The position numbers and the translations under genes were made by a program. Source: Physcia stellaris (lineage: Eukaryota; Ascomycota; Lecanoromycetes; Caliciales; Physciaceae). Taken from it: a stretch of DNA of 64,000 nucleotides. How positions within the stretch are numbered: the stretch's first letter is position 1; each line of letters begins with the position of its first letter. Location of the stretch: the NCBI GenBank assembly GCA_018902385.1, contig JABSSW010000028.1, forward strand, positions 496,001-560,000, written 5' to 3'. Positions 1-61,049 of the stretch are shown here, piece after piece. The notes under the pieces were generated by a model, which had not been told where the DNA came from, did no database searches, and saw only the letters and a program-made list of their open reading frames with translations.

Positions 1-739
1 CAAATATACAATGACGTTAATATCGAGACGAATCGTTAAAATTTTATTGATGAAATTTTGAAACGTCGTCGAAACGTTAATGAAATCGAAAAAAAATACG
101 TTATATTCGAAATGATCATATCGAATACGAAAAATCGTTTTTCATTCGTTTTCATGTTTGATACGCAATCGATGATAAACAGCAATCAAATCAATGTTGA
201 TATACTTAACAGTTTTGTTGAATTTATTTAAATTTTTATCGATTAACGATAGAGAATATTTATTTTTATCGTGAAAACATTAAGATTTCTGTAGTTCACG
301 CATAATCGTAAATTATCGTTTTTTTTTTTTTTTTGACGAACAAGATGAACGCTTTTGCAGAAAATTGTGAAAATCGAATGAAATCGTTAACTAAATGTTT
401 TTCGATATAAGCACGTAATATTCGAAATTCATTTTCGAATAAAGAATAAATTGATTCATGCGACGATTTTTTGTTTTTTTTTAAATCAATAGCATGATCG
501 TTTGAGTCATGATTCGATAATTCGTAAATTTTATTTTCGTTATCGAGTTTTTCATACGTTTTCAAGATATCGAAAAGAATGATTTTGACATCGAATTTTT
601 CTTTCATTTCAGTCAAAACAAATTTTATTTGAATTCGTTTTGAAATATGCATTTCATGCATGTCGAATTGTTTGTCAATATACATTCGTACGAACATGAA
701 ATACGTTTCGATTTCGTTATCGATGACGTTTTCGATCAA
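1..739 (-). pseudogene. Ty3/gypsy reverse transcriptase fragment, stop-ridden
   Basis: The open frame 296-739 (147 codons) ends with the characteristic N-terminal entry into gypsy-type RT: an acidic stretch, E-F-x-x-L-R-x-Y-I-E, F-I-R, S-x-F-S-A, then L-F-V-K-K-K and a Y-D-Y that corresponds to the usual VDYR. A TGA at 296-298 interrupts it. The same frame continues without net frameshift to the window edge and keeps the palm-domain spacing, but carries ten or more stop codons. The catalytic YxDD box would lie to the left of, or at, the window edge and is not seen. Confidence 0.7.
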
Positions 740-1339
740 TTGTTTTGATTCGATGTTTTCGATACGACATGTGATAAAAATGAAATGTTTTTTTTTGCAA
801 CGTCAAATTTTGATACTGTCGTCGTTTCAATTTATTTTGATTTTCGAAAATTGTATTCAAAACATGTTTAACGTTAAATTTCAGTTCAGATTCACGATCA
901 GAAACGATTTTTCGAAAAAACGACTAATTTTCTTGACGTTTGACATTTCGAGTTGTACGAAATAAACGTTATACGTTTTCAAACGATAATTGTCAATTGT
1001 TATTGCATCACAATTTAGAGTTTCAGAGCGACGAAAATTCAATTTTTTCGCATAAACATGATTTATCAAATTAATTTTCGTCTTTGTATCGAATATTGTT
1101 TTCGATTCGTTTCAGATTTTGTTTTCGTTCTGTATGTTAATTTTGATTTTGACGCATTTACGAATCACGAATTTTTTAAATTTTTTGCGTCGTTTTTTTT
1201 TTTGTTAGCATGATTTTTGTTCATGTTTGAGAAAAACGACGTATCGAAATCGAAATTCGAAAATTTCTTTTTTTTAACGATTTGAGCGAAAATCATTAAA
1301 TCGATTAGTTTTTTGATTGTTCAAAAGTTTGATCAGCGA

Positions 1340-1910
1340 AAATGATTTTGTTCTTTTTGTTTGTGCAAATTTCGATTTGATGATCTGATTTGTCACAATT
1401 TATACAATTATTTTTGTTTTGAATTTTTTTGAATTCGTTGACGAATCAACGATACATTCGAATATTTTTCGATTTGACTGATTCGTGATTCGAGTTAATT
1501 TTGTTAATATTTTTGATTTTTTTATTTTTGAATTTCGCAATTTTGAATTTTTCGTTTTCGTTTTCAAAACTGTCAATATCGAACGAAATTTTACGTTTTT
1601 TGAAACTCTTGAGTTTTTTTTTCAAAATTTGAGCGTTTTTCATACGTTTGAGTCGTTTAAACAATTTCGTTTTTGTGAAAATCTTTTTTTTTTTAAAAAG
1701 CATGTAGCGAAATTTCAGACGTAATTCGTCACGAAAATCGTTGAATTTCATTGTTTTCGTGAATTTGAATTCGAATTTCAATTCAGCAAGCATATTTATT
1801 CGTTCGACATTGTAATTTTTAATCGATTGATTGTGACTTTGTTTGTGTTTGCGATATTTTTTCAAAAGATTTTGTTGCAACGTGATTGCTCGTTCGATAT
1901 CGTTTTTCAA
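1340..1910 (-). pseudogene. Gag-like ORF with CCHC zinc knuckle, interrupted by stop
   Basis: A 154-residue very basic open frame (1446-1910, minus) ends in TGA at 1446-1448. In the same frame beyond that stop lies a perfect CX2CX4HX4C box encoded at 1365-1406 (Cys, Cys, His and Cys all present), the nucleocapsid-type zinc knuckle of retroelement Gag proteins. The stop can be explained by TGG to TGA, a G-to-A change after G, which is the dominant mutation type in these repeats. The protein is lysine- and phenylalanine-rich because C and G have been removed from most codons. It is not functional as read. Confidence 0.7.
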
Positions 1911-3945
1911 AAAAATCTTGAATTCGTTTCAGATGTATTGTTTGTTTGAATGAAAATCGATTTTTACGTTTCAAAACTTGTTCGCATTGTTATTTGACTT
2001 AAAATAAATATCAACGTATGCGATTTTGATTAAATTCGAGAATTGAATCATGTGATTCACGTTGTTTTGCGTGAATTGATTTTTTATTTGTTTGCAATAT
2101 CTCTTTTATTTTTTGTAATTTTTTTTTTTATATTGATTCGATGTCGTCTCGATAGTTTTCATGACGAAAAATTTTCAAACAGAATCAAAAACAAAAATAA
2201 ATGAAATAAAAACAAATGAAATAGAAATTACAGATTTCGAACGTTCAGTATTTCGAGTTTGCAATCTGATTTTTTTTTATGACTTTTTTCGATTTGTTGT
2301 TTGTAATAAATCAATCAAAAAAATACGTCAGCATTTTCGACAAACTCAAAAAGCAAATCATTATCAGAGTTCGACATGATGTATGCGAAACAACAAAATT
2401 GTATTCTGTTAAATATACACGAGTGACATCATTCTGAAATATGATAGCGATTAGAATGTAAAACTCGTACTAAAAATAATATAATTTAATGAATTATTGA
2501 CATCAGAAATGTATAGTTTGAAATGTAATATATTGATTTATTAATCGTTACAGAACAGATTACGTTTTGCAATTGCTTTTTATTCACATTCTATTTATTC
2601 AATCGTACGAATTCGAGCGATTTCGACTGACAATATGAGCTTGTTGAGTTTATCGTTGATCGAATTGTAAGATAATTGAAATTAATTTTTTTCGAAGTTA
2701 TTCGAATTTCGATAATCGAATTGCTTGACGAAATGCGAATCGCATTTTCGAAAGTTCTGAACTTTTATTTTTTACAATTGCGTTGTTTTTTGCGCTCATT
2801 ATTTTTTCGACATTTGAAACGTTTCAGAATTTCATTTTTGTTGTTTTCGATATTTTGTTTTGCAAAAAAGTTCTGATTGTTTTGAGTGAAATTCAAGATG
2901 AAATTCTGTAATTCTATTGCAAATGAAAATTTCATGATAAAATGTAAATTCGCAACGAAAACAATACGATGAGCATCGTAATTTCGTATTGATTGATTGA
3001 TTCGTTGTTTATAATTTTTATATTTCTGAAAGTTGTTTTTTTTTCTAGTGAAAACTTTCTGAATGTTTTTTTTGAGAAAATCAACATATTTTTTTCATGT
3101 ATATTTTTTATCTGAATTGTTTTTGACTTTGACATTTCACAACAATTGAACACTCGATTCTTTTTTCAAAAAGATGATAACAAAAAAAAACTTGATTTTG
3201 TTCAAATTCTCGACATATTCGTTCGCTTGATTCATGTCGAATTGATTTTTCATTTCTCAAACGTATTGAGTTCATTTTTTGTAACTGTTTTCTGAAAATA
3301 AATTTGACTTGTCGCTCATTATCTTGATGTAAAATGATTTTTTTTTGGAAAAAATAATCTGAACGATTGATGAAATGACTTGATTGCGTAATGTTTTATA
3401 TCGAGCAGTCTGTTGTTGAATGTATGTTCGATATTTTTGCGAAATGACGTTTGATTTTGAAAAATCAAAAATCGACTCATTGATGTTCGTGAGAGAAAAA
3501 AAGCAGACATGTTGTTGACTTGATGTCTTTGTATCACGAATGATGTTAATTTGATGATTATGATAGAAATTAAAATGTAAAATACGAAATGTAACATCAG
3601 AAATGTATAGTTTTTGATTGATAATTAAATTAATTTCTAAAAAATCAAAAATTTTAATCACTATTTTCTCGTTATATACAAATGTACGAATAAAAAGAAT
3701 AAAAAATTCCAATTGCAAATCACTCGACTTGTTGCTTGTTGTTGTATAAAAAAATGCAAACAATATTTTTTCGAATTCGATGTTTGCTTTGCATGTGATC
3801 ATGATGCATATTTCGATTTTATCGAAATTCGATCATATTTTATGTCGATCTGAATTCTGAATGTTTTACATTTTTTACAAATCGAAAATAACGAGCGATT
3901 TTTAATTCTGTTATACGCGATCTTTTCATTGATCAAAATTTTTGC

Positions 3946-12084: not shown

Positions 12085-12582
12085 GCTGGTAGTTGTTTGA
12101 CTTGTAATTTACCACGGCAAGGTATCTTGAATAGCAGAGGCGTTTCAGTGCATCGACGTTGAACCCTAATCACATGTAAATCAATGATACAACCCTAAAT
12201 AGAATCGCCCTCTTGCTCGACCGACTGGACAGAGAAGCTAAACGATTACTACCGCATCTCAGACCATTAACAGCTCGGTAGTTCGGATGTGGATAGTCAA
12301 TAATCTCCTTTGTTCGCTGGTCAAGCAGCAACCCCCCTAGTTTGCGTGTAGGGTTAGTATGTATAACCCAGCGAACAAAGGGATAGAATCTTGCTCAATT
12401 CATACGTCTGTATGCTCTTACTTCATCTTTAGGGAATTGTGGAGACGGTCTAGTATCCGAGATAAATTTCGATGTTCTAGATTGAGAATTTGAAGAGATG
12501 GAGACGATATGACGTTAACATTTCAAGTACGCTGCACCATCAGTTACTTCTAAATCCATCAATGATCGGATACTGTGGAGTA
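12085..12582. other. NMT1 upstream region with a 14-bp inverted repeat
   Basis: Promoter side of NMT1. It contains a perfect 14-bp inverted repeat (cctttgttcgctgg at 12307-12320 and its complement at 12368-12381) around a 47-nt loop that itself holds AACCC...GGGTT. This could be a hairpin, a small foldback element or a palindromic factor site. Single telomere-like CCCTAA units occur at about 12163 and 12193, too few to call a telomere array. Confidence 0.6.
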
Positions 12583-12622
12583 CAATCGGGTTAGTTTTTT
12601 TGACCTAACCGTGCAATAACCG
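12583..12622. repeat. Outer left terminal inverted repeat
   Basis: Forty bases that are nearly the reverse complement of 16805-16844, with only a few mismatches. They share a central core reading TTTTTTGACCTAACCGTGC. This TIR is unmutated and gives the ancestral state of the ends. Confidence 0.85.
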
Positions 12623-14710
12623 AGGTCCCGCCCCACCAGGCCACTTTTTCGTCCACTTCGTTCTATTATCCACGTTACATACGTTCAAATTGTACAAATA
12701 TCGCAGCTCTTGATGTTGAAATTATGGAAAAAACATATGACTTCATTTGTATGCAATTTATTTCGTTTCTTCGACACAAATTGATCAAAACAAATTGTTT
12801 CGTCAATTATTATCAAAATCATTATCGTTTTCGAATTGACGATCACGTCTATTTCGAACGCAAACGTATTGATTTTACGAAATTTGATCAACATTGAAAT
12901 TACGTTTTGATTTGTTTCGTGAATCGTGAATATCACGATAAAAACGTTTTTAATGATTGAATTCGCGAATATCACAAACAAAAAATCGAAATTCGTTTGC
13001 GTTTGAAACAAGATTTTGATCGTCGAATCAATGATTGTATCATTTTTATTGATGACGAATATTATTGAAAAAAAACAAACGAATTTGTTACATCAAATAT
13101 TTTGATTATTATCGTCAATTAAATAATCAATCATGAAAATGATTATCGTCATTACAATCAATGATTTGTTGAAATTTGATTGATATGTTTTCGATTTATT
13201 TTTGAATAATTTTTTGAAAAAAAATTTGTCAAATTTTTTTTCATTTTTTACAAATTGAATTTCAATTCTTTGTTTGTTTTATATGTTTTTTGTTAATTTC
13301 ATCGCGTTTTCAAATTCATGCGTGTTCGATGACGTTGATATTTGATAATCGTGACGATTAATCGATAAATTTCACGATTTCGTTGAAACGAAAACAAATT
13401 TCGTTATGTTGAAAAACATGAATTGAAACATTGTTTTCGATAATCAATCAATCAACGTTCGAATATTTGATTTGCAAATTTTCTTTAATTCAAAAAAAAA
13501 AATTTTTGTTTAAAAACGTTTTTTTATGACGAAATCAATCAATTTTTTCGTTGAATTTGTCATTTTTAATTTTGACGTGATTTTTGAAATAAATTTCGTA
13601 TTTGACGATTTTGTTAAACAATATTTTTTTGTTTTTTTTTTTTTTTTTTTCATTGTTTCGAAAATTAAAAAAACGACGTAATGTTGATTTATTTCAACGA
13701 CGTTTTTTTCGATCAATAAAATTTTCATTTCGTATTTTTTTTTTTTCGATTTTTTCAAAATAAAAATGCATGAATTTTTTTTCGAAATAACAAAAAATCG
13801 TTTATTCGAAATTCATAAAAAAGTTTTTTATTTTGTTCATTACAACATTTTTATGAAAAATTTCGTCGATCAAATTTCATGCTCGATTCATTTTTGTTCA
13901 ATTTTGAATATTGTACAAAACAAAATAATATAATATTGATTTTTAATTTCATTTTTTTTTATTGCGAATTCGTCGATAAAAATTGCACGATTTTTGAAAT
14001 CGAAATGTTTTCATTTATTCGCAAAAATAAAACGTTTTCGTTTGTTTTTTTCGTTCAAAATCGATTTTCAAATTGATTTTCGTTTAAAAACATCATGTTT
14101 GTACATAACAATTTGAAAAATCGATATGAAACAATCAAATTTCAAATAATCAATGTGTTGATCAACAAAACGTTTTCGATTTTTTTTATTAATCAATACA
14201 TAACGAATCAAAAAAAAATTTTGAAATTCAATGAATTTTTTTTTGCGATTTCGATCGCACGAAATCTCGTAATTGAAAAAATCATGCAAAAAAAATTTGT
14301 TTTGTTCGACATGACATTTGATTTTATTTGTTGTTGTAATCACGTTTGAAAAATTGATATTTTTTTTTTTAATTTATTGTTAATTTTTTTAAACGATATA
14401 TTTTGTTGTATATACATGTTTGTGATCATGATTTTGAACGTGATTGACGAACGATGATTTCGTTTTTTTATTCGATCATTTGTGATCGTTCGATTTTTGA
14501 TTTTGCAAAATTTTTTGAACATAACGTCACGAAATGAATTCAATAAACAAACATCAAAAAATTGTATCAATTAAACATCAAGCAATTGTAAAAATTTGAT
14601 TTGAAAAAAATCAAATTCAAAACACTGTTTACATCAAAACATTGATGAAAAAATTGTTCAAACGTTATCGTTTTTCGATTATCGCACGATTAAATCAAAA
14701 AAATTAATTT
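12583..14710. mobile_element. TIR DNA transposon, copy 1 (hypermutated)
   Basis: About 2.13 kb. The left terminus CAATCGGGTTAG follows a TA at 12581-12582. Its right end meets copy 2 directly at 14710/14711. The first approximately 130 bp have normal composition, and the rest is saturated with C-to-T/G-to-A changes. The terminal inverted repeats and the TA target duplication around the pair fit the Tc1/mariner superfamily. No transposase could be read through the damage: open frames such as 14068-14343 (minus) are fragments with no motif I can name. Orientation is unassigned. Confidence 0.85.
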
Positions 14711-14750
14711 CAATCGAATTAATTTTTTTGATTTAATCGTGCAATAATCG
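14676..14750. repeat. Fused inner TIRs forming a long palindrome
   Basis: The right TIR of copy 1 and the left TIR of copy 2 abut here, giving an approximately 75-bp near-perfect AT-rich palindrome. Both TIRs are fully mutated. Compared with the outer ends, the final CGATTG and the TA expected between two independent insertions are missing, leaving a single T before CAATCG. Confidence 0.8.
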
Positions 14751-16844
14751 AGATTTCGTTTCATCAAATCATTTTTTCGTTCATTTCGTTTTATTATTCA
14801 CGTTACATACGTTCAAATTGTACAAATATCGCAATTTTTGATATTGAAATTATGAAAAAAACATATAATTTCATTTGTATGCAATTTATTTCGTTTTTTC
14901 GACACAAATTGATCAAAACAAATTGTTTCGTCAATTATTATCAAAATCATTATCGTTTTCGAATTGACGATCACGTTTATTTCGAACGCAAACGTATTGA
15001 TTTTACGAAATTTGATCAACATTGAAATTACGTTTTGATTTGTTTCGTGAATCGTGAATATCACGATGAAAACGTTTTTAATGATTGAATTCGCGAATAT
15101 TACAAACAAAAAATCGAAATTCGTTTGCGTTTGAAACAAGATTTTGATCGTCGAATCAATGATTGTATCATTTTTATTGATGACGAATATTATTGAAAAA
15201 AACAAACGAATTTGTTACATCAAATATTTTGATTATTATCGTCAATTAAATAATCAATCATGAAAATGATTATCGTCATTACAATCAATGATTTGTTGAA
15301 ATTTGATTGATATGTTTTCGATTTATTTTTGAATAATTTTTTGAAAAAAAATTTGTCAAATTTTTTTTCATTTTTTACAAATTGAATTTCAATTTTTTGT
15401 TTGTTTTATATGTTTTTTGTTAATTTTATCGCGTTTTCAAATTCATGCGTGTTCGATGACGTTGATATTTGATAATCGTGACGATCAATCGATGAATTTC
15501 ACGATTTCGTTGAAACGAAAATAAATTTCGTTATATTGAAAAACATGAATTAAAACATTGTTTTCGATAATCAATCAATCAACGTTCGAATATTTGATTT
15601 GCAAATTTTTTTTAATTCACGAAAAAAATTTTTGTTTAAAAACGTTTTTTTTATGACGAAATCAATCAATTTTTTCGTTGAATTTGTCATTTTTAATTTT
15701 GACGTGATTTTTGAAATAAATTTCGTATTTGACGATTTTGTCAAACAATATTTTTTTGTTCGTTTTTTTTTTTTTTTTTCATTGTTTCGAAAATTAAAAA
15801 AACGACATAATGTTGATTCATTTCAACGACGTTTTTTTCGATCAATAAAATTTTCATTTCGTATTTTTTTTTTTCGATTTTTTCAAAATAAAAATGCATG
15901 AATTTTTTTTCGAAATAACAAAAAATCGTTTATTCGAAATTCATAAAAAAACTTTTTATTTTGTTCATTACAACATTTTTATAAAAAATTTCGTCGATCA
16001 AATTTCATGTTCGATTCATTTTTGTTCAATTTTGAATATTGTACAAAACAAAATAATATAATATTGATTTTTAATTTCATTTTTTTTTATCGCGAATTCG
16101 TCGATAAAAATTGCACGATTTTTGAAATCGAAATGTTTTCATTTATTCGCAAAAATAAAACGTTTTCGTTTGTTTTTTTCGTTCAAAATCGATTTTCAAA
16201 TTGATTTTCGTTTAAAAACATCATGTTTGTACATAACAATTTGAAAAATCGATATGAAACAATCAAATTTCAAATAATCAATGTGTTGATCAACAAAACG
16301 TTTTCGATTTTTTTTATTGATCAATACATAATGAATCAAAAAAAATTTTTGAAATTCAATGAATTTTTTTTTGCGATTTCGATCGCACGAAATTTCGTAA
16401 TTGAAAAAATCATGCAAAAAAAATTTGTTTTGTTCGACATGACATTTGATTTTATTTGTTGTTGTAATCACGTTTGAAAAATTGATATTTTTTTTTTTTA
16501 ATTCATTGTTGATTTTTTTAAACGACATATTTTGTTGTATATACATGTTTGTGATCATGATTTTGAACGTGATTGACGAACGATAATTTCGTTTTTTTAT
16601 TCGATCATTTGTGATCGTTCGATTTTTGATTTTGCGAAATTTTTTGAGCATGACGTCACGAAATAAATTCAATAAACAAACATCAAGAAATTGTATCAAT
16701 TAGACATCAAGCAATTGTAAAAATTTGATTTGAAAAAAATCAAATTCAAGACACTGTTTACATCAAAACATTGATGAGGGGACTGTTCAGACGCTATCGT
16801 TTTCCGGTTACCGCACGGTTAGGTCAAAAAAATTAGTCCGATTG
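14711..16844. mobile_element. TIR DNA transposon, copy 2 (hypermutated)
   Basis: Second head-to-tail copy of the same element, collinear with copy 1 over its whole length and differing by scattered transitions and a few 1-2 bp indels in homopolymers. The right terminus ends CCGATTG and is followed by TA at 16845-16846. The last approximately 80 bp are unmutated, whereas the matching end of copy 1 (14626-14710) is fully mutated. The longest remaining frame is 16196-16699 (minus, 167 codons), lysine/isoleucine/phenylalanine-rich. It may be the N-terminal DNA-binding part of a transposase, but I see no definite motif. Confidence 0.85.
16805..16844. repeat. Outer right terminal inverted repeat
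   Basis: Partner of the left TIR at 12583-12622. It ends in CCGATTG directly before the TA duplication and keeps its CpC, GpG and ApG dinucleotides. Confidence 0.85.
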
Positions 16845-17735
16845 TAATGTGATGAATTATTGAGAAAGCGTTTCCAACCACTCGTCCGACGAAAAATGAG
16901 CACCGAAAGGAAGTGAGTAATGATGAAATCATGATAGCTCGATTTAGGATAACAAGAGATTGTATATGATATGAAAGATTCTTTGAAAGTGGTTTCGTTT
17001 CCAACTCAAGATACCACTCATTCATGTCGTTCCGATGCTCAGTTCTGTCCGCGCGTGCGGACATCGAGCAGGTCTCAATTCCAATGGTCTGCTGTCCTTT
17101 GAAGGAGAAACTCGCTGAAAGCTTCATTCAAAAGATTCCTTTTGATTATAAAGTAGCTCCGTCGGTCATGTAATCCCAAGCCTTTTTTGTCGACCCCGAA
17201 TGCTGGAGTAAGAAATTGTCTCAGGACGACCCTATTTGCCAATCAAAAGCCCAGGGTAATGTCTCCTCTAGCCGTCAATCCGCACAATGTCGAATGGGCC
17301 ACCAGTACCCTTGAGTTGTAGGCCTTTTGTCGGATCACCGAGCCCTCTCCTATCACCGAGCATTTCTGATGTGGTTTTTCAATAACTTTGAGGACGAATC
17401 TTTTTGGTATGAATCAGGCATGGAATCAGGCATGGAATTGAGAGGATCTCCTTCAGTAAGACCTTTGTCTTCAGAAATCTCTAGATTCACCCATTCACCC
17501 ATTCACCCATGTGGGCAATGTGTTTTTGTTTTATAATGAAAGTCTCGAGTCTTTATTGATGTCCTTGTAAGGCCAAAGTTACAACTGGAAAGTCCGGTGT
17601 TGGAGGATTAGAAAGATATAGCGGTATTGTTGAAGCACGACCGTGGCTGACTATACAAAGTTGAAAAGCCATAGGTCAAATTCCAGAAAAAGAACGCTAG
17701 CAAAAGAATTAACAGAAAATTGAGTATGGAAGATA
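16845..17735. other. Intergenic region
   Basis: Normal-composition DNA between the transposon pair and the ABHD12-like gene. It contains a nonamer repeated three times (CCATTCACC-type, about 17487-17513) and a repeated ATGGAATCAGGC near 17409-17432. A 102-codon minus-strand frame (16819-17127) starts in unique DNA and ends inside the TIR. I see no domain and do not call it a gene. Confidence 0.4.
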
Positions 17736-57739: not shown

Positions 57740-58816
57740 GTTTCGAGGGGGTGGAGGTGGGTTGGATTTTTTGATTTGGGGGTTTTGGGGAGAGGAGGTG
57801 GGTTGATGAGGAATTGATAGGTAGGTCTTTTAGTGCTGAAGTGAAAGAAGGAAGTGTGAGATGCCAGTTTTGGAAAAACCTTTTGTTATTTATTGAAAAG
57901 GCGCCGCGTTTGGGCCTTCTTGTTTTCTGGATGCCTGGTTTCCATGGCTTTGATGATCCTGATGGGGGTTTGGTCAGACTTGAGACTGGTTCAGATGGAT
58001 TTGACGACTTGACGATTTGACGACTTGACGACTTGACGACTTGACGACTTGACGACTTGACGACTTGACGACTTGACGACTTGACGACTTGACGACTTGA
58101 CGACTTGACGACTTGACGACTTGACGACTTGACGACTTGACGACTTGACGACTTGACGACTTGACGACTTGACGACTTGACGACTTGACGACTTGACGAC
58201 TTGACGACTTGACGACTTGACGACTTGACGACTTGACGACTTGACGACTTGACGACTTGACGACTTGACGACTTGACGACTTGACGACTTGACGACTTGA
58301 CGACGTGAGGACTCGACGACTTGACGATTTGGGAATGAAATTTGCCAAGAGGTCAATTGACGATATACTGATCTTGGTTTCGTACCTCGTATATCGGGTT
58401 CGATACTAGTAGGCCTAAGAATTGACAAGAGAGATATTATACATGAGGATTGCGGTCGTTGACAGTTTCGTAGCGACTAGGAGGAACATACTGGATAGAA
58501 AAAAAGAAAAGAAGGAAAGGGGCATAAAAAACGTGTGAGAGAGAAGAAAAAGAAGAGCATAGCCACCGGCATCAGTATGATCAGTCACAGCGGGACTTCG
58601 TAGATGCGTGAACGGAATCGAATTGATGTCAATACCAATCAACCGACTCTGTTTAATCCGAAGCATTTCTCTGCACTGTTTCCATAAGCATGAACATATC
58701 CAAGTCCCAACTCCAATTGCACGGGAAAAGGACCGGGTAATCCAACACCCATCGTTGCGTCCCATCATCACTTACAAACCTGTACACCCTACCCACGAAC
58801 CACCCCAATCCAAAAC
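57740..58816. other. Intergenic region dominated by a satellite array
   Basis: Convergent space between the LigD-like gene and the cysteine-rich gene, holding the 8-bp repeat array at 58001-58330. Outside the array I see no gene. The open frames across it are artefacts of the repeat. Confidence 0.7.
58001..58330. repeat. 8-bp tandem repeat array (GACGACTT)n
   Basis: About 41 head-to-tail copies of GACGACTT, almost perfect in the middle and with variants only at the edges (GACGATTT near 58011, and GTGAGGACTC and GACGATTT near 58306-58330). Because 8 is not a multiple of 3, every forward frame encodes the same eight residues in rotation, and so does every reverse frame (SSSRQVVK on the minus strand). 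No stop arises, so long but meaningless ORFs appear. Confidence 0.97.
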
Positions 58817-59697: not shown

Positions 59698-60463
59698 ATT
59701 GAAATGAGATCACTGGCGTTGTATTTGAGACGAAGGGCAAGGTGGGCTTGTTTTCGAGAAGATGATGACGATCTTGAAGCGGACGCGGGGCGCGTCAACT
59801 TACACGCGAAAAGACCATCAGAAGAACGCTTGACTGCATTGGGTGACACTTCGGTTTTAAGGTAGCCAAATCTCACTTATAGCCAACTCTCCTGAAGCAT
59901 TATTGATACTGCGTACTCGCGTGCTTCAGACGCATTTATCATGTAGTTGTCCCCGGCCCAGAAGCTTCTTGATCGGCCGACCTTCCTCAGGATTAGGAGC
60001 CAATTAGGAGACCCCATTCAATCATTAGGTGGTGGATGAGTTTCGGAAGAATCCACGGTACCTGATTTTTGCCATTGATTATCACCACAAGTAAAGACTC
60101 GTTGTGTCAAAATTCCCAAAAGAATAAATTCTCCATCAGCGTAAAGATAATATTTTTAGGGAGCGCCTATCCGGACTTGAGATCGCTATTTGGACTTGCC
60201 AAGACCTTTATATCCGGTATATCCGGCCTGCAGCATACGGTCCCAAATGCTCGATTCTGAACGATTCAGCACCATATCACGATTGTACATGCTATCGAAT
60301 TGAGTTTAGCGTGAATAGACCAATTGCATTGATATTGATGTAGAAAGGGCCCGATTTTCTACCTAACAACAGGACCTCGGCCAATCAGATGAGGCCTGCA
60401 AGGTCGCAAAGATTATTCCTCCCCTCTCCGCCTGCTCTTTATCCTTCGCATATCTTTCATCTC
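59698..60463. other. Intergenic region with one arm of an inverted duplication
   Basis: Promoter side of the cysteine-rich gene, then unique sequence and the isolated repeat arm at 60157-60258. The arm can be read as a fragment (GSAYPDLRSLFGLAK) of the gene at 60464-61049 but has no coding context here. Confidence 0.55.
60157..60258 (+). repeat. Inverted duplication, arm A
   Basis: About 102 bp repeated in reverse orientation at 60883-60989. A core of roughly 47 bp, beginning AGGGAGCGCCTATCCGG, is identical; the outer part is about 80-85% alike. The arms are about 620 bp apart. Confidence 0.9.
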
Positions 60464-61049
60464 CTAGTCAGTCTTCGCTCGCTTGTTGATATTTGCATTG
60501 GTGTTGGTCTTCCGTTTGCGTCCGGTGATGGTCCGCACTGAATTGGTTGTGGCCGCGGTGGAGCCAGTAAATTCCCCATCGTATTGCATCGCTTGACTGT
60601 ACAGTTGGCTTGGTGAAGAAGGCATAACCGTGTAACTAGACGGAGGAGGTTGGCTCGAAGGGACTTGCACTATTTCGTCAGTCGTCAAATCAATTGCTTT
60701 CTTGAAGGGTTTTTTGATGGGTGAACCATTCCCCCCCCAACGGCGGCGAGAGAAGGGCATCGGGGGGTGTTTCCGACTCATATTCGCTAACAGTGAAAGG
60801 CGTCGTGGCCTTACTAGGAGGAGAGATCATAGCAGGGGTCTGATTCGCGATGCAGGTGGGTGGTAGGTAGGTAGGTAGATAAAATCGAGAATTGGGAAGT
60901 GGGTGTTGCAGGCCGGATATACCGGGATTAAGAGTCTTGGCAAGTCCAAATAGCGATCTCAAGTCCGGATAGGCGCTCCCTATTTTTACTCCTCTGAGAC
61001 TCTCGTCCTTGTCCCATCTGTATTGGGTTAGCGCAGAGCTAGTCGCCAA
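60464..61049 (-). pseudogene. Nuclear-type protein gene with a frame break at a G8 run
   Basis: Two overlapping minus-strand frames together look like one protein. The upstream frame (to 60690) carries YRWDKDESLRG, SAYPDLRSLFGLAK and SEYESETPPDALLSPP; the downstream frame (60464-60781) carries NGSPIKKPFKKAIDLTTDE and ends with a bipartite basic signal (GRKRK...NKRAKTD). They meet at a run of eight G (minus strand) near 60730-60740. A one-base length change there would put them in one frame. It could be a sequencing error, a recent inactivation or an unrecognised intron. The 5' end is undefined, since no good ATG was found. Family unknown. Confidence 0.45.
60883..60989 (-). repeat. Inverted duplication, arm B
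   Basis: Reverse-orientation partner of 60157-60258. It lies inside the coding frame of the minus-strand gene fragment (encoding SAYPDLRSLFGLAK...), so this arm is probably the source and arm A the copy, unless both come from a small mobile repeat. Confidence 0.85.

Follow-up and report, generated by a model that had tools for sequence, protein, structure and literature searches.

A hypermutation resembling repeat-induced point mutation, directed at CpC and CpT, in transposon copies of Physcia stellaris

The window analysed here, a stretch of 64,000 nucleotides from Physcia stellaris, harbors at positions 12583-16844 a tandem dimer whose unit is a 2.13-kb inverted-repeat transposon. The dimer carries the traces of a hypermutation that converts cytosine to thymine where the next base is a pyrimidine (CpY, i.e. 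CpC or CpT); this CpC/CpT hypermutation was confirmed as real and genome-wide. Self-BLAST of the window gave 95.96% identity between the two copies (12583-14706 and 14711-16835). Since the final five bases of copy 2 are absent from copy 1, the two copies are joined head to tail and do not represent two clean insertions. The unit is likely a Tc1/mariner-like DNA transposon: a weak match to the Tc3-type transposase helix-turn-helix was found in copy 1 (Table 1) and another in copy 2 (HTH_Tnp_Tc3_2, E 0.01, also below the curated cut-off), with TGA translated as tryptophan in the frames searched. The sole further long matches of the unit found in the genome are two pieces on contig C1, at 69% and 74% identity, the first of which (locus L003) sits in CpC-poor DNA. 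The flanks of the dimer are normal in composition, and the 2 kb on its left, single-copy except for one 47-bp match, are spared.

Realignment of copy 1 (12583-14710) with copy 2 (14711-16846) showed 30 substitutions across the outermost 200 bp on the left, exactly the count of an earlier note on this DNA: 17 in CpC, 11 in CpT, two in CpA and none in CpG. The C or G always stands in the outer copy, and there are no transversions or indels. Since the inner copy is mutated at 28 of 29 CpY sites and at 2 of 47 CpR sites (cytosine before a purine; Fisher p = 2.4e-17), local composition was rejected as the cause. Apart from the 30 transitions the outer left end equals the inner one and is not an unrelated sequence, an explanation that the earlier note had considered. 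Duplication of an already mutated copy would have produced matching ends; with 28 CpY mutations separating the outer left end from the inner one, the mutation came after dimerisation, and the reverse order was rejected.

At the right end, from 16750, the outer copy again always has the C or G. With positions taken from the alignment and contexts read by eye from the sequence, 17 differences were found where about 16, all of one class, had been reported; nine are CpC and seven CpT, and the seventeenth is CpG in the outer copy, though CpC at the junction. Six more differences at 16636-16703 comprise three CpT, one CpG and two CpA, one of the latter running the opposite way. The remark that residual differences deep inside the copies involve CpA was borne out, with transitions at 7 CpT, 16 CpA and 4 CpG sites between the ends, besides 9 transversions and 5 indel positions. 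Dinucleotide counts in 12780-14600 are CC 0, GG 0, CT 5 and AG 3, as against CA 102, TG 121 and CG 93. The mutation-free border of the dimer measures about 200 bp on the left and 100-160 bp on the right. Such fading toward the borders of a repeat is likewise known from repeat-induced point mutation (RIP) in Neurospora.

A second hypermutated block lies at the start of the window and is 84% identical to the reverse-transcriptase locus L026 over 1-1836 and 69% identical to the retrotransposon locus L052 over 38-503. By our own reading this element is probably Gypsy-like; a Pfam search of three frames of the block found no retroelement domain, with one chance-level match only.

Table 1. Features of the dimer and of the second block (positions in the window), and two genomic elements that lack CpY bias (contig coordinates)
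Feature	Position	Strand	Description	Basis
Dimer copy 1	12583..14710		2128 bp; final 5 bp (GATTG) of copy 2 missing	Self-BLAST, alignment, junction sequence
Dimer copy 2	14711..16844			Self-BLAST, alignment, junction sequence
Left 32-bp terminal inverted repeat	12583..12614		Unmutated; 29/32 match to right repeat	By eye
Right 32-bp terminal inverted repeat	16813..16844		Unmutated	Compared by eye
TA, left	12581..12582		Probable target-site duplication	By eye
TA, right	16845..16846		Probable target-site duplication	By eye
Decayed frame	13843..14373	minus	Tc3-type transposase helix-turn-helix match	HTH_Tnp_Tc3_2, E 0.0047, weak, below curated cut-off
Outer left end	12583..12782		Unmutated, pre-mutation sequence	CpY per bin: 23 in 12583-12682, 6 in 12683-12782, 0-2 beyond
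Hypermutated core	12783..16682		Both copies and junction	Per 100 bp: CpY 0-2, CpA/CpG 13-32
Outer right end	16683..16844		Mostly unmutated	CpY sites: 9 in bin 16683-16782, 16 in 16783-16882
Second hypermutated block	1..3600	minus	Part of LTR-type retrotransposon	CC 0, GG 1, CT 67, AG 85, CA 167, TG 263, CG 193
L022	G000:C5:1165021-1168497		LTR-type element without CpY bias
L023	G000:C12:58812-62288		LTR-type element without CpY bias

The sequence context of the mutations was tabulated across the genome (44 Mb, 147 contigs) in a long terminal repeat (LTR) retrotransposon family aligned to its least-mutated copy, L021. The family has RNase H and integrase domains and appears, in our reading, to be Gypsy-like. 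The count covers nine of the 12 matching loci, those whose alignments exceed 2300 columns, and leaves out L010, L028 and L033, which are shorter. In these nine copies cytosine was changed to thymine at 3779 of 3863 CpC sites, 3485 of 4034 CpT sites, 264 of 3849 CpA sites and 124 of 3570 CpG sites; CpA, the preferred target of classical RIP, is thus not the preferred target here. The 5' base matters little at CpY, the mutated fraction ranging from 96.8 to 99.0% for CpC and from 83.4 to 89.7% for CpT. The minor CpA mutations prefer a 3' pyrimidine (CAC 96/648, CAT 83/963, CAA 58/1325, CAG 27/913), with C or T following in 179 of the 264 cases. This preference for CpApC and CpApT hints at a wider recognition footprint.

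Single pairs of copies show how clean the process is. Comparison of L038 with L021 gave 912 changes of C to T or G to A, a single T-to-C change, 8 gapped bases and no transversions; both strands are mutated (387 of 813 C and 525 of 945 G), whereas CpG is mutated at 0 of 408 sites. A 7-kb LTR retrotransposon represented by L051 and L052 shows C-to-T changes at 915 of 919 CpC, 891 of 932 CpT and 56 of 904 CpA sites, and CpG, the preferred target of the basidiomycete type, is changed at 4 of 888. This pair has 1866 C:G to T:A transitions against 9 reverse transitions and 14 transversions. Expressed as rates, the ratio of CpC to CpT is 1.7-1.9 and that of CpC to CpA 54-85. Decay of CpG methylation was rejected as an explanation because CpG is the most protected context. 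The earlier note had proposed that CpY is hypermutated while CpA and CpG are spared. CpC and CpT indeed lead, and CpA is minor, where mutated copies were compared with unmutated ones; the protection of CpA is incomplete, with about 6-7% of its sites mutated in the retrotransposon comparisons.

The same order is seen in lightly mutated copies. When L091, L092 and L093, copies of another repeat, were compared with L052:8001-10000, which lies beside the L052 element, the losses were 88, 165 and 123 for CpC, 32, 60 and 55 for CpT, 8, 17 and 11 for CpA and 5, 8 and 10 for CpG, respectively, which indicates that CpC goes first and CpT second in early copies too. Once both copies of a pair are saturated, CpA may account for more differences than CpY, as in the dimer interior and some other pairs.

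For an unselected sample, a 2-kb stretch was taken from the midpoint of each of 20 contigs (of 147), and these stretches were divided into 80 sampling windows of 500 bp. Seventeen of these have less than 35% GC (20-31%), and every one of them fits the rule, with pooled counts of CpC 1, CpT 120, CpA 1066 and CpG 880; the corresponding counts in sampling windows of at least 42% GC are 3666, 4014, 4010 and 3252. The low-GC windows fall in five stretches, two of which were searched against the genome and were both found to be repeated (42 and 54 matches). The pattern marks about one fifth of what was sampled, which scales to some 9 Mb, a rough figure given the small sample. Among the loci L025-L050 the GC fraction is below 0.31 in 23 of 26, and the pooled counts for both strands are CpC 80, CpT 2535, CpA 9813 and CpG 9342.

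Stop codons in decayed transposon genes point in the same direction. A search of the genome for the reverse-transcriptase family RVT_1 gave 527 candidates, of which 150 were scored; a hand tally of their in-frame stops found 251 TGA, 33 TAA and 3 TAG. Ten DDE_1 transposase matches, two of them adjoining on contig C14, contain 44 TGA, 3 TAA and no TAG. An excess of TGA is what CpY mutation, which turns TGG into TGA, should give, whereas CpA mutation would create TAA and TAG from CAA, CAG and TGG. Eight RNase_H matches add little (4 TGA and 1 TAG, in three of them). The genome-wide tabulation that the earlier note had named as the test of its claim finds CpC and CpT in the lead and CpA not dominant, and the low-GC sample and the stop codons agree with it.

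The indices by which RIP is usually detected do not respond to this pattern. The RIPper thresholds are given as product >1.1, substrate <=0.75 and composite >0 in the section of the source that states them (PMC6714961); those used here were product >1.1, substrate <0.75 and composite >0.01. None of the 113 windows of 23 mutated loci was positive, and with older thresholds none of the 23 loci was. The TpA/ApT ratio pooled over the mutated loci is 0.41 (0.39-0.47 in blocks) as compared to 0.68 in the gene-rich part of the window, and the composite index is -1.03 as compared to -0.59. Both the TpA/ApT and the CpA+TpG indices rate mutated DNA as less RIP-like than gene-rich DNA, so RIP of the CpY kind could be undercounted by the usual indices.

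The process works like RIP in the features of the sequence that were tested, apart from the classical CpA preference and from the fact that some repeats are untouched. C:G to T:A transitions occur on both strands in L021/L038 and L051/L052. At the few places tested, namely two low-GC stretches and the left flank of the dimer, repeats are affected and single-copy DNA is spared. Methyltransferases of the RID/Masc1 class are represented by two RID-like loci, the class being assigned by tree and by motifs taken to be typical of it. As in Neurospora crassa, where RID and DIM-2 are involved, transitions on both strands of repeats go together with RID-like and DIM-2-like genes. The order of preference differs: for N. 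crassa it is given as CpA>CpT>CpG>CpC (PMC5496416, in the part concerned), whereas it is CpC>CpT>>CpA>CpG in P. stellaris.

Elements of this pattern have been described in other fungi. The passages of Amselem et al. (2015) on mutation signatures tie CpA, CpT and CpG to methyltransferase classes and do not name CpC (PMC4352252). The same passages list Botrytis cinerea, Sclerotinia sclerotiorum, Magnaporthe oryzae and others as fungi that have a RID-like gene and in which CpT ranks among the main targets; there CpT accompanies CpA, whereas in P. stellaris CpC comes first and most CpA sites are passed over. The extracts of the RIPCAL paper report that CpT changes exceed CpA changes in Tad1 of N. 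crassa, and that in Stagonospora nodorum CpA is dominant with CpC depletion among other effects (PMC2621366). CpT-to-TpT changes are described as dominant in alignments of RIP-capable control fungi (PMC7882544, in part), CpC-to-TpT double mutations accompany classical CpA mutation in Monilinia (PMC8959702, in part), and Monacrosporium haptotylum shows no decrease of CpA while the TpA product pattern is kept (PMC3828140, in part). In Rhizoctonia solani AG8, as far as the account of it goes, CpC is the commonest of the four CpN contexts of single-nucleotide polymorphisms, yet it is sparser in repeats (spacing of 301 bp versus 214 bp genome-wide). The basidiomycete CpG/TpCpG bias of Microbotryum and others is likewise a neighbour-ruled C-to-T change in transposons, unlike the present one in its CpG target and in a Masc2-like enzyme, the RID class not being found there according to the passages concerned (PMC4352252); in P. 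stellaris CpG is the best protected context. Another lichen fungus, Cladonia rangiformis, has strong RIP with low-GC, sharp-bordered transposon DNA, RID and DIM-2 homologues and some unmutated copies, and its mutated DNA peaks near 16% GC as opposed to 20-31% in the low-GC sampling windows here; the main text of that report does not contain the words dinucleotide, CpA or CpC (PMC12542154). In the portions of the open-access literature that were covered, we found no report of a CpC-first RIP with CpA mostly spared.

The P. stellaris genome has four PF00145 matches in three cytosine methyltransferase genes. L018, which reads through as one long frame and carries a DUF7893 domain in addition, is, by our own reading, probably DIM-2-like. 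L017 and L019/L020 have, in place of ENV, a motif which we take to be RID-type, and both have kept the C-terminal QIGNAVPP motif. The best named match of L017 is a protein of Heterodermia aff. obscurata (72% identical), while the first named match of the second RID-like protein (L020) is from Gyalolechia; both genera belong to the Lecanoromycetes, and the genome was accordingly taken to be that of a lichen-forming species, probably in or close to the Caliciales. In a quick tree of 86 rows, built without bootstrap and with 31 of 83 forks left open, L017 is one of 19 rows that form a clade (SH-aLRT 97) with Heterodermia, a lichen fungus, as its sole named member, whereas L020 is placed among other lecanoromycete RIDs, near the Teloschistales. 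The earlier note had suggested a check for unusual RID or DIM-2 homologues. One DIM-2-like and two RID-like genes were found, one of the latter in a distinct clade. This lineage-specific RID paralogue, L017, is the obvious candidate for a link to the CpY rule.

We consider it probable that the hypermutation is the work of a genome defence of the RIP type in which CpC, once last in the order of preference, now comes first and most CpA sites are passed over. In such a process repeated DNA would be recognised, presumably through homology and in the sexual cycle, and cytosines on both strands would be converted to thymine, fast and near-completely, by machinery of the cytosine-methyltransferase class. 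The enzyme, plausibly of the RID family, would pick cytosines with a 3' pyrimidine, act about twice as fast on CpC as on CpT and mostly refuse CpA and CpG; the altered specificity may lie in the L017-type paralogue. That L051 stands unmutated inside CpY-depleted DNA suggests that the process is episodic, as a mechanism bound to the sexual cycle would be. A more specific version seems to us possible, if somewhat short of probable: in a lichen lineage in the area of the Physciaceae, the RID paralogue of the L017 clade would have been re-tooled for a 3' pyrimidine, saturating its targets in one or a few cycles, going unseen by the usual indices and having shaped about one fifth of the sampled sequence (17 of 80 windows).

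Four other explanations were weighed. Cytosines might be attacked irrespective of context, with T:G repair of the thymine-glycosylase type acting at CpG and CpA and leaving mutations at CpY only. This would account for the low, non-zero rate at CpA, and it is improbable: with CpG at 0 of 408 in L021/L038 and CpC exceeding CpT 1.7-1.9 fold, repair would have to be near-perfect at CpG and graded elsewhere, and mutation of CpA depends on the next base (14.8% for CAC versus 3.0% for CAG). A slow deamination of 5-methylcytosine, set at CpY by a maintenance methyltransferase and proceeding with no repeat-induced burst, would be in keeping with the DIM-2-like gene, the widespread low-GC DNA and the copies at intermediate stages. 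We rate it slightly lower still, since the 912 transitions, one reverse change and no transversions of L021/L038 left no time for ordinary substitutions; relative to these the mutation was fast. Although retroelements do show C-to-T hypermutation, as would be expected of an APOBEC-type single-strand cytidine deaminase acting on retrotransposon DNA, such an enzyme is a very unlikely cause. APOBEC enzymes read the 5' side of the target cytosine, whereas here the 3' neighbour sets the rule and the 5' base makes little difference at CpY; moreover both strands are mutated, and DNA-transposon sequence is mutated too. The genome gave no match to APOBEC_N, which is uninformative because all 14 control genomes were also without one. 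The last alternative is RIP of the classical CpA type, the CpY pattern being put down to local chance or to an advanced stage. It would fit the CpA differences common among CpY-saturated copies and is refuted for the copies examined, where CpA is kept at 93-94% while CpC is lost at 98-99.6%, lightly mutated copies are already CpC-led and TpA/ApT is 0.39-0.47 in mutated blocks.

Several observations weigh against the RIP-type defence proposed above, most of them repeats that escape. As regards duplication, in tandem or otherwise, as the trigger, the dimer was mutated after it had formed, but there is a diverged relative on C1, and several repeats escape. The family of L052:8001-10000, a repeat of about 2 kb beside the L052 element with at least 40 places scored of 225 candidates, is partly unmutated; of seven copies compared, L087-L090 (79-86% identity) have no CpY bias and three have it. 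The reach of RIP is given as 80% identity over 400 bp in the relevant part of one account (PMC3828140), and divergence may be the reason for the escape of L087-L090. The bias is also missing from L022 and L023, which share 95% identity over 3.4 kb and have family relatives at 70-82%; of the 143 codons that differ between them 129 are changed synonymously, and L023 has one in-frame stop there. L051, whose LTRs are identical at 392 of 392 positions, has stayed unmutated since its insertion. It is nested (from 2957; also L085) in DNA that is nearly free of CpY, with a probable TTCAA target duplication seen by eye. Two side observations concern the window itself. At 58001-58331 it contains a 41-copy array of TTGACGAC, 97% uniform and with its CpT sites intact; a repeat of such a short period seems to escape the mutator. 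An inverted repeat pair of 100 bp and 87% identity (60157-60256 and 60883-60982) lies in otherwise normal DNA.

There are hints that the CpY rule is widespread, a lead that comes from protein composition. Five reverse-transcriptase pieces, of which four were mutated, were combined into a profile that found 1349 hits in protein databases; the best 120 were examined. Among these, 66 proteins are devoid of proline and glycine, and by composition 79 are CpY-like, 13 mixed, 28 normal and none CpA-like; nearly all are from ENA, a query of this make-up preferentially finds sequences like itself, and part of the hits perhaps belong to the same species. Seventeen of the 66 proteins without proline and glycine (P0231, P0232, P0249 and 14 more) still contain tryptophan. 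Gene callers may read a mutated TGG, now TGA, as tryptophan with code 4, which would be an annotation trap. No relatives of the mutated retrotransposon were confirmed in viral_contigs and genome_contigs.

A survey of 1,239 fungal genomes by Badet and Croll (2025) describes a CpA preference as shared by RIP-like defences, in the part that treats it (PMC12543289), whereas CpA is mostly rejected in P. stellaris. CpC, the least-favoured context in Neurospora, has been nearly fully removed from many transposon copies. In the scored matches the in-frame stops are mostly TGA and not TAA or TAG, so transposon genes die differently here. With two RID-like paralogues in one genome, the target choice of RID becomes open to experiment.

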